Shown here: positions 10,070-26,761 of the stretch, in pieces | Numbering within the stretch: the stretch's first letter is position 1 | How the letters are laid out: every line of letters begins with the position of its first letter | Program-made: the position numbers and the translations under genes | Origin: Gordonia sp. 'Campus' | Lineage (GTDB): Bacteria > Actinomycetota > Actinomycetes > Mycobacteriales > Mycobacteriaceae | Direction of reading: 5' to 3' | DNA length: 64,000 nucleotides | Assembly (NCBI RefSeq): GCF_022206305.1 | Contig: NZ_JAKOIW010000006.1 | Location: 25,756 to 89,755, forward strand | Notes under the pieces: model-generated | Seen by the model: only the letters and a program-made list of their open reading frames with translations | Database searches by the model: none | Told to the model about the DNA's origin: nothing

Positions 10070-10234
10070 ATGAAGTTGGCTGACACAATTCACTCGCCCC
10101 GACGGGGCTCACTGTTGAACTCGCTCACCGGTGGACGACTCGGGGGCCGTCGCGAAGACACGACGATGTTCCCTGCCGAGGCCGAACGACTGATCACCCC
10201 CGCCGAACTCAGACGGTTCGGCGTCCGTTCGTAG
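10070..10234 (+). CDS. small 54-residue protein of unknown function
   Basis: A short frame with a good Shine-Dalgarno (AGGAAG, 9 nt before the ATG). The protein starts MKLADTIHSPRRGSLLNS and ends PAEAERLITPAELRRFGVRS. It is basic, with no membrane segment or Cys motif. Codon use is GC-rich in the third position. No family recognised. It stands alone, directly upstream of the structured-repeat stretch, with a possible -10 (TACAGT) about 50 bp upstream. Confidence 0.5.
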   Translation: MKLADTIHSPRRGSLLNSLTGGRLGGRREDTTMFPAEAERLITPAELRRFGVRS

Positions 10235-10279
10235 CGGGCCCGTCGCTCACGTTCTTCGTTCCCGCTGTATCGGTGGGCG

Positions 10280-10403
10280 TCGTCGTCGACCGAGAAGAAG
10301 CTGCCCTGTAGAGAAGCGCTACTTCGGTGCCAGCTGCGCTAGTTGTAAGTAGCGCCGGTGACCCGAACTAGCGCTTATGCGTGCCGGCTCTCCTGGGGGC
10401 CGG
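10280..10403. repeat. structured repeat, copy 1
   Basis: Inner inverted repeat GCGCTACTT (10316-10324) and AAGTAGCGC (10347-10355), with a small stem CAGCT/AGTTG inside its loop. A second partner for the same left arm, AGCGCTTAT (10370-10378), matches AGAAGCGCT (10312-10320) with one mismatch. A separate hairpin CCGGCTCT/GGGGCCGG (10384-10403) follows. Confidence 0.85.
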
Positions 10404-10618
10404 TTGTTGTGGGGTCCTCGGTCCAGCGAGCAGGAGTCTCGCGGTTCATTCGTGCACTCGAACGGGGTGTCCGCGGCTGGGCCGCGAAATCTCGTCCATC
10501 TCAGCATGGCTCGAGGGCAATATGCCCTTCCTGCGTCGTGAGGTGGACGGGAATTACGCGCGAATCAAGTCGGACATCCGCGACGTCGGTTCCGCTTGCA
10601 CCTGCGGATCCCCATGGC

Positions 10619-10740
10619 CGTCGTCGTCCGAGAAGAAGCTGCCCTGTAGAGAAGCGCTACTTCGGTGCCAGCTGCGCTAGCTGCAAGTAGCGCACATGAC
10701 CTCAACCAGCGCTTCTGCGTGCTGGCCCTCCTAGGGGCAG
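10619..10740. repeat. structured repeat, copy 2
   Basis: Same design as copy 1: inner pair GCGCTACTT (10654-10662) with AAGTAGCGC (10685-10693), competing outer pair AGAAGCGCT (10650-10658) with AGCGCTTCT (10708-10716), and a following hairpin (10722-10740) in which a C-G pair of copy 1 is U-A. The central CAGCT-GCGCT-AGCTG stem is perfect here. Confidence 0.85.
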
Positions 10741-10868
10741 ATGTCTCGGGGGCCTGCCGCCGCGCGCGAAGTGTCGTTCCTCTCGGCTTTGGGTTGGACG
10801 GGAACTACGCGTGAATTAAGTCGGGCATCCGCGACGTCGGGTCCGCCGCACCTTGGGGGATCCCGCGG

Positions 10869-10968
10869 CCGTCGTCGTGCGAGGAGGAGCTGCCCTACAG
10901 AAGCGCTACTTTGGTGCCAGCTGCGCTAGCTGCAAGTAGCGCACATGACCTCAACCAGCGCTTCTGTC
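10869..10968. repeat. structured repeat, copy 3
   Basis: Inner pair GCGCTACTT (10903-10911) and AAGTAGCGC (10934-10942); outer pair AGAAGCGCT (10899-10907) and AGCGCTTCT (10957-10965), both perfect. The second hairpin of copies 1 and 2 is replaced by an unrelated CCGCG/CGCGG stem. The copy ends about 40 bp from the stop codon of the S4 gene. Confidence 0.85.
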
Positions 10969-11007
10969 GACCGCGGGGCTCAATCGCGGCCCAGGGGTTC
11001 CCGCGCC

Positions 11008-11253
11008 TCAGGAGTCGGAAGGCTCCGCGTCCTCGGAGGCCACGCGCACGCTCATTCCGCCGACCGCCACCACGTCGCCGACCGTCAGCTGACGGCCGCG
11101 GCGGGCCTCCACCTCGTCGTTGACCGTGACCAGCCCGTCGGCGATCACCTCTTTGGCCTCCGCGCCCGATTCGATGAGGTTGGCCAGTTTGAGGAACTGG
11201 CCGAGGCGGATGGAGTCGTCCTTGATCGTCACGTCGTACACCGCCCTGATCAT
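11008..11253 (-). CDS. S4-domain RNA-binding protein
   Basis: 81-residue stand-alone S4 domain of the YbcJ/YaaA type, expected to bind structured RNA (rRNA-related in known members). Visible motif: [20 protein letters not shown] followed by [20 protein letters not shown], the classic alpha-L S4 fold, ending in an acidic tail. The ATG at 11253 gives the family's normal length; upstream in-frame codons are not plausible. It is transcribed toward the structured repeats and away from lysX. Confidence 0.85.
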
Positions 11254-25108: not shown

Positions 25109-26761
25109 GTGGCCCCTGTGGTGTTGTCGCCGCGCGATCTGGCCGGTTGCGAGCATCGGGTGGCGCTCGATTTCTCCCACGACCGACGACCGGGCACCGA
25201 ACCCGACCCGCCGGGGGTGCAGCGTCGTAAGGAGGCAGCCGCCGATCATCGGGCGGCTGTCCGCGAACTGCTCCGTGCGGTCCACAGCGACCAGCCCGGA
25301 GCATTCGTCATCGTCGATCCGGGGATGACCAGCGCCGACCGGGTGGCCGCCACCCTGCGCGCCTGCGACAGCGGGGCATCGTGGATCTGGAACGCGACGC
25401 TGCCGACCGACGAGACACACGGCCGACGCGGCCACGCCGAGCTGCTCGTGCGGCGCGGCGACGGGTACATCCCCGTCATCGTCGTCAATCACCGGGTGAC
25501 TCAGCCCGCGAAAACGGCGCCGGACCCGGCCGGCCGGCCGCCCACGCTCGTCACGAGTCCGTTCTGGACGTGGGCGCCGTCGCCGGATCCCTATCGCACG
25601 GGGAGGCCCAACCGGCGAGACAATCTGCGCCTCGCGCAGCTGACCGCGATGCTCGTCGAGATGGGCAGGGCGTCGTCGGCCGACCGGTCCGAGTTGCGCG
25701 GTGGCGTGATCGGCGTCGATGCCGACTGCATCGTCGTCCACGACACCGGGGCGATGCTGGACGACTACCAGCAGGTCCTCGACCATCGACTGGCCATCGC
25801 GGCCGGGAGGGTCGAGACCGGCCCCCGGCGGATCTCCGAGTGTCGGTCGTGTCCGTGGTGGGTCAAGTGCGGGCCGGAGCTCGAGGCCCGGCACGACGTG
25901 AGCCTGGTCGCGACCGGAAACCAGGGCGCGGTGCTGATCGACGCCGGGATCACCACGATCGACCAGCTCGCCGCCCAGCGTGGCGCGCCGCCGGAGGGTT
26001 GGCCGGGCGCGGTGCGGTTCGGGGACGCCGTCATCGGCGCGATCGCGTGGCTCACCGGTACCGAACTGGTGCGCCGGCTCGACTCGCCCCGGGTTCACCG
26101 CGCCGACATCGAGATCGACGTCGACATGGAGAGCTACGGCGAGCACGGCGCATATCTGTGGGGCACGCTGCGCACCGATACGACCGATGAGTCCGTACCG
26201 GTCGTGTACCGCCCCTTCGTGACCTGGGACCCGTTGCCGACGCGCGACGAAGCGCGCTCGTTCGCCGAGTTCTGGGGATGGTTGATGGCCGAGCGGGCCG
26301 CGGCTCACGATGCCGGTCAGACCTTCGCGGCGTACTGCTACTCGCAGCAGGCGGAGAACCGGTGGCTGCTCGGTTCGGCCGACCGCTTCGCCGGCGAACC
26401 GGGGATACCGTCCCGCGCCGAGGTCGAGGCGTTCATCGGATCACCGGAATGGGTCGACATCTACGAGGCGGTCGGCGAGAACTTCATCTGCCCGCACGGC
26501 AAGGGGCTCAAGCGGGTCGCGCCCGTGGCCGGTTTCGCCTGGCGGGACGAGGACGCGAGCGGTGAGGCCTCGATGGAGTGGTACCGGGCGGCAGTCGCTC
26601 TCGGTGGGGGCCGCGCCGACGAGGGGCAGCGTACCCGGCTCCTCGAATACAACGAGGACGACGTACGTGCGACGAAAGTGTTGCGCGAGTGGATCTCTGA
26701 CGGGGCGGCCGAGCAGGCTCCGCACGAGCGCGACCTGCTCGCGCGCCAACCCGCCGAGTGA
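25109..26761 (+). CDS. TM0106-family RecB-like nuclease with RNase H-like domain
   Basis: 550-residue predicted nuclease. The N-terminal half has a RecB/Cas4-like PD-(D/E)XK core (HAELLVRRGDGYIPVIVV, with the D and the VVNHR strand) and a Cys cluster SECRSCPWWVKC typical of Fe-S-bearing Cas4-like nucleases. The C-terminal half is a YprB-type RNase H-like domain starting IEIDVDMESYGE and ending in LLEYNEDDVRATKVLREW, the DEDD exonuclease signature. Likely role: DNA or RNA processing/repair; substrate unknown. Start GTG 25109 has AAAGGG 6 nt upstream. Stand-alone, divergent from the DUF6474 gene. Confidence 0.85.
   Translation: MAPVVLSPRDLAGCEHRVALDFSHDRRPGTEPDPPGVQRRKEAAADHRAAVRELLRAVHSDQPGAFVIVDPGMTSADRVAATLRACDSGASWIWNATLPTDETHGRRGHAELLVRRGDGYIPVIVVNHRVTQPAKTAPDPAGRPPTLVTSPFWTWAPSPDPYRTGRPNRRDNLRLAQLTAMLVEMGRASSADRSELRGGVIGVDADCIVVHDTGAMLDDYQQVLDHRLAIAAGRVETGPRRISECRSCPWWVKCGPELEARHDVSLVATGNQGAVLIDAGITTIDQLAAQRGAPPEGWPGAVRFGDAVIGAIAWLTGTELVRRLDSPRVHRADIEIDVDMESYGEHGAYLWGTLRTDTTDESVPVVYRPFVTWDPLPTRDEARSFAEFWGWLMAERAAAHDAGQTFAAYCYSQQAENRWLLGSADRFAGEPGIPSRAEVEAFIGSPEWVDIYEAVGENFICPHGKGLKRVAPVAGFAWRDEDASGEASMEWYRAAVALGGGRADEGQRTRLLEYNEDDVRATKVLREWISDGAAEQAPHERDLLARQPAE

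Follow-up and report, generated by a model that had tools for sequence, protein, structure and literature searches.

What kind of element is repeated three times in the long gap between two convergent genes of Gordonia sp. 'Campus', and what could it do there? The gap lies within the stretch that was analysed as a whole, hereafter the window (64,000 nucleotides; positions 25,756 to 89,755 of contig NZ_JAKOIW010000006.1), and a sequence-only reading of the window had proposed a family of small structured RNAs or regulatory RNA switches. On one side lies a small gene of 54 aa (MKLADTIHSPRRGS..., 10071–10235, plus strand), conserved across Gordonia both in position and in sequence, with 54-93% identity in syntenic loci. 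On the other side, the gene of an S4-domain RNA-binding protein (11008–11253, minus strand) is present in 59/59 Gordonia genomes. The 3′ ends of both genes face the repeats across a gap of about 770 nt, and the S4 stop codon is located 40 nt from the end of the last copy.

The three repeated palindromic copies are real. They share a unit of 71 nt, which we call family A, and lie on the plus strand at 10310–10380, 10648–10718 and 10897–10967, with scores of 78.1, 82.8 and 82.7 bits under our covariance model R1; such scores (78-83 bits, E of about 1e-19 to 1e-20) are far above chance. Identity to copy 2 is 87%, 100% and 97%, respectively; copy 1 was additionally recognized by its fold, with the inner hairpin GCGCTAGTTGTAAGTAGCGC, and copy 3 by its gene context. 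The inner arms GCGCTACTT/AAGTAGCGC are identical in all three copies, as had been described, and copy 1 does show the change from CAGCT/AGCTG to CAGCT/AGTTG (G-C to G-U). In copies 2 and 3 the outer stem AGAAGCGCT/AGCGCTTCT pairs without a mismatch, whereas copy 1 has one (AGCGCTTAT), and the additional hairpin said to follow copies 1 and 2 forms a clean stem after copy 1 only, while that of copy 2 folds differently and none is found after copy 3. Absent from that earlier description is a second palindrome, family B, of which a full copy (GCGAAATCTCGTCCATCTCAG ... GAGGGCAATATGCCCTTC ... GAGGTGGACGGGAATT; 10483–10564, plus strand; model R2, 86.8 bits) separates A copies 1 and 2; a remnant that has lost its inner hairpin (10762–10812, plus strand) was recognized from the alignment of the tandem units.

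Together these elements make up a tandem array (10281–10975) that direct repeats and alignment divide into three units: unit 1 (A and B, about 10281–10618), unit 2 (A and the B remnant, about 10619–10867) and unit 3 (A only, about 10868–10975). Units 1 and 2 match across 153 nt at 81% (direct repeat D1), and the stretches preceding copies 2 and 3 match across 112 nt at 79% (direct repeat D3). Most simply, the three A copies would be tandem duplications of one segment. Since they share flanks and belong to one array, the base-pair differences among them are few and non-independent.

Gene order around the site is conserved across the Gordonia loci compared, and the window's dedA-type protein is 86% identical to that of the G. 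lacunae locus. In the other loci (n=11), 6 to 132 nt separate the small gene from the S4 gene, except in G073, whose gap of 345 nt is occupied by a palindromic repeat of another kind. None of the relatives' syntenic loci compared (n=11) carries family A at this site, thus the window array is specific to its lineage. G073 and G. lacunae have a further repeat family in this gap, made up of CTCCCTGAGGAGCGAGCTTGCGAGCG and units related to it (L114:1158-1504, L025:10590-10668), and similar units are also located after purB in several species.

To what extent does family A form a conserved structure beyond this array? In the family fold, an outer stem of about 13-18 bp is followed by an internal loop with a CAG/CTG step and by an inner GCGC hairpin. 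Across the ten copies that served as input to the covariance model, outer and inner stems are paired in 94.7% of cells, against 24-45% in slid controls, and double changes occur in 5/19 pairs, which agrees with the earlier view of a structured non-coding family with compensatory changes. Across 78 non-redundant copies, the two-tier hairpin is paired in 89% of cells. The outer stem, with T-A/G-C and C-G/T-A exchanges, supplies the top two covarying column pairs, three pairs of the inner stem rank within the top eight, and three more high-ranking pairs are nested between the stems, marking the CAG/CTG step. Most top covarying pairs thus lie within or are nested in the two-tier hairpin, some neighbouring-column pairs also being high, and the p-values are empirical, with phylogeny left out of the model, which sets them apart from an R-scape test. 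These data support a single two-tier hairpin as the structure that family A forms.

The mutually exclusive folds from which a switch had been proposed did not survive this comparison. The covarying fold pairs segment 1 with 4 and segment 2 with 3, and the proposed stem between segments 1 and 3 is not the conserved one. In the 78 copies, this alternative inner stem is paired in 73% of cells, is mismatched at variable columns and shows no strong covariation; in copies 1, 2 and 3 the two-tier fold is more stable than the best fold containing this stem by 8.5, 3.4 and 10.6 kcal/mol. The overlap of the stems arises because both tiers in the window genome carry the same GCGCTA word. Read on the sense strand of the gene, tandem sites have 33 G-U against 25 A-C mismatches, a ratio without RNA-level bias that agrees with an RNA as well as a DNA reading of the hairpin.

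A covariance-model search, which the sequence-only reading had suggested, did reveal further copies: family A is found in 14/59 Gordonia genomes and at 16 sites in the window genome, the genome-wide counts being model matches under stricter filters and hence lower bounds. Apart from a weak match in G080, the genomes bearing it are those closest to the window by their S4 protein, which suggests that the carriers form one clade, as judged by the similarity of this protein rather than by a genome tree. Family B is more widespread (46/59 Gordonia genomes) and was not found outside Gordonia in a 121-genome sample of the order. In the window genome, three of the four strong family B copies have an A copy no more than about 110 nt away (10483–10564; L097, L098, L105). 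Weaker A-like two-tier palindromes were detected in two other genera, in one genome each (G100, G125), one genus being of the same family and the other of a different one, suggesting that the two-tier format may extend beyond Gordonia; the palindromes themselves (L196 and L197) differ in sequence from family A. Neither family matched Rfam at gathering score or at any value up to E 5. Phage and plasmid records gave no match to the window region, and a phage or plasmid origin of family A was rejected for lack of any matching record.

For the position of family A relative to genes, gene calls came from a scorer of codon usage that had been trained on the window, and their boundaries are approximate. 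Among the 84 family A sites mapped, the flanking genes are convergent at 50, tandem at 24 and divergent at 7; the remaining 3 sites overlap a called gene. Convergent gaps are enriched (odds ratio 8.4) and divergent ones depleted (0.15), with placement p-values that are indicative only, as the sites are partly orthologous. The facing stop codon lies within 40 nt at 65/84 sites (18% expected from random intergenic placement in the same loci) and within 20 nt at 54/84 (10% expected); the median distance is 10 nt, the element typically sitting 1-30 nt past the stop, and gaps of 77-100 nt are often nearly filled by it. Family B also prefers 3′ ends, farther from the stops (median 47 nt). This placement of family A is that of a terminator or 3′-end hairpin serving both directions. 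Since the copies lie where genes end, in most cases in convergent gaps, they point to 3′-end hairpins and not to the discrete small-RNA genes that had been envisaged, and no promoter-like site was found near the window copies.

With regard to the type of terminator, a stable hairpin shortly past the stop is what a canonical terminator has, and family A provides it; the canonical U-tract is missing. A run of at least four T (TTTT within 12 nt) after the hairpin was seen on 0/127 transcript-sense sides, and a scan of the window stretch for canonical terminators found none. What family A does match is the description of "I-shaped" terminators, namely a hairpin that lies no more than 50 nt from the stop and has no poly-U. 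We also considered a transposon with A copies as its terminal repeats, as some A copies lie 0.9-1.6 kb apart; the genes between them are ordinary ones and each A follows a stop codon, and this candidate was rejected.

Sites shared between species show how the element behaves over time. Common flanking genes group 60 of the 84 sites, some groups merging neighbouring sites of one genome. After uvrA, family A is found in ten species, its nearly invariant arms set within variable spacers, the arm sequence GCTGCAACGGAAGTGGCGATT being strongly conserved. The uvrA gap of the close relatives G030 and G067 holds no element, some other species have short uvrA gaps with no hairpin, and in G036, G076, G078, G032 and G027 the same spot is taken by unrelated perfect or near-perfect stems of 14-19 bp that exceed all 40 shuffles. 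After purB, family A is private to the window genome among the genomes compared (flanking proteins checked), and other species carry different palindromes there. That unrelated sequences adopt one shape at a given gene end argues for the 3′-end shape as the feature that matters. The empty uvrA gaps of some relatives, together with the window site lacking the element in others, indicate that family A is not essential. In the uvrA gap of G021, a segment of two genes (L091:2840-4402) is bordered on either side by an A copy, the two copies being direct repeats, as if the segment had been inserted at, or recombined through, A; one of its genes encodes a TetR-like regulator and the other a membrane protein. 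In the serC/gltA region, species-specific accessory genes (AbiEi-like or esterase) are each followed by their own A (L088, L090, L092, L095, L096).

How could such a hairpin act without a U-run? According to a review, mycobacterial genes mainly rely on I-shaped terminators that lack poly-U and lie no more than 50 bp from the stop, and Rho-dependent termination is dominant overall (PMC12288462). Work on the I-shaped class cited there includes Unniraman 2001, Mitra 2008 and Ahmad 2020. In M. smegmatis, expression of a reporter fell in the presence of a hairpin without a U-tract, and only when the hairpin was in one orientation (PMC5335608). On the other hand, Czyz 2014, as cited in PMC5335608 and PMC12288462, is quoted for a requirement of mycobacterial RNA polymerase for a U-tract in vitro. 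It is because of placement, with the sources in conflict on the need for a U-tract, that we favour a role in marking 3′ ends. We lean, with moderate confidence, to the view that family A serves as a 3′-end mark for transcripts coming from either direction, either as U-less I-shaped terminators or as mycobacterial-type 3′-end hairpins. Nascent RNA from either flanking gene would be transcribed through the element and fold into the family A hairpin, which might stall or release RNA polymerase without a U-run, and/or halt 3′-to-5′ trimming following Rho-dependent release. At the window site, one A and one B element would have entered the gap that separates the small ORF from the S4 gene, and tandem duplication would then have raised A to three copies. 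Counting against a 3′-end signal are the seven sites between divergent genes, the lack of T-runs, the unbiased G-U counts and the fact that relatives can dispense with the element.

The main rival is a mobile palindrome, REP-like or MITE-like, selfish or neutral, that is tolerated at 3′ ends: its copies would be spread by some enzyme or by recombination and survive where they are least harmful, their pairing being kept for that enzyme and not for transcription. The many related copies, the tandem array, the G021 insertion between two A copies and the G-U counts without strand bias would all fit such an origin, as would the window and purB sites, which hold A in the window genome only among those compared. 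We nevertheless regard it as rather unlikely. The Y1_Tnp domain (PF01797, TnpA-REP) of RAYT-type transposases was found in 0/59 Gordonia genomes, control genomes being positive, so that a RAYT/REP system proper was rejected, and no phage or plasmid record carries the element. Moreover, A persists after uvrA in ten species, and in others unrelated hairpins occupy the same spot.

A further reading is a repeat that spreads independently of any transposase, one Gordonia lineage having spread the hairpin as a bidirectional 3′-end signal that a dedicated factor reads, with modules swapped over time between lineages, so that other palindromes stand at the same gene ends elsewhere; we consider this distinctly improbable. 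Also improbable is a site that acts as DNA, a cruciform or a binding site for a nucleoid, gyrase-like or repair factor where the supercoils of convergent transcription meet. Convergent placement, the near-symmetric sequence, the missing sense-strand bias and the conserved arm at uvrA would be expected of it, but 24/84 sites follow stops in tandem gene pairs, and unrelated hairpins at the same place in other species point to structure over a bound sequence. The RNA switch or small structured RNA family proposed at the outset is very improbable, given that, apart from the GCGCT bases common to two stems in the window genome's copies, its alternative stem is neither conserved nor favoured, the elements lie at 3′ ends and not in 5′ leaders, and Rfam offers no match.

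Bidirectional 3′-end marking, should it hold, bears on a disputed question, namely how actinobacterial transcripts end without U-tracts. For this question family A offers natural experiments: its copies are many, some of them carry compensatory changes, and uvrA, purB and the window site can each be compared between species that have the element and species that lack it. A word of caution also follows for similar surveys, since repeated structured-RNA candidates of GC-rich genomes may be 3′-end palindromes.

Among known systems, TRIT (RNIE, Gardner 2011) is a family of repeated terminators dispersed at Mycobacterium tuberculosis gene 3′ ends. TRIT hairpins are canonical, with a U-tail. Family A is likewise a dispersed 3′-end repeat, in a related genus, and is set apart by the lack of a U-tail. 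A TRIT model receives mention in PMC3526491. REP/BIME elements resemble family A as short dispersed extragenic palindromes with 3′ and convergent placement; however, they come with RAYT transposases, whereas in Gordonia no Y1 transposase was found and several positions of family A are kept between species. In Neisseria and Pasteurellaceae, uptake motifs arranged as inverted pairs have been co-opted as terminators and are, like family A, repeated genome-wide and enriched between convergent genes, but the uptake signal is 9-11 nt long and generally exceeds 1,000 copies (PMC1852404), whereas family A is a 70-nt unit with tens of copies. Family A also resembles the I-shaped terminators of mycobacteria, a group of the same order; these too are GC-rich hairpins that lack poly-U and lie no more than 50 nt past the stop. 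As far as the cited accounts describe them, those are individual hairpins, whereas family A is one two-tier repeat family that serves many genes and, unlike them, is often common to two convergent genes. Our limited literature search retrieved nothing relevant on a Gordonia repeat family of such kind, although one may exist, and within that scope family A is a previously undescribed family of a known kind.
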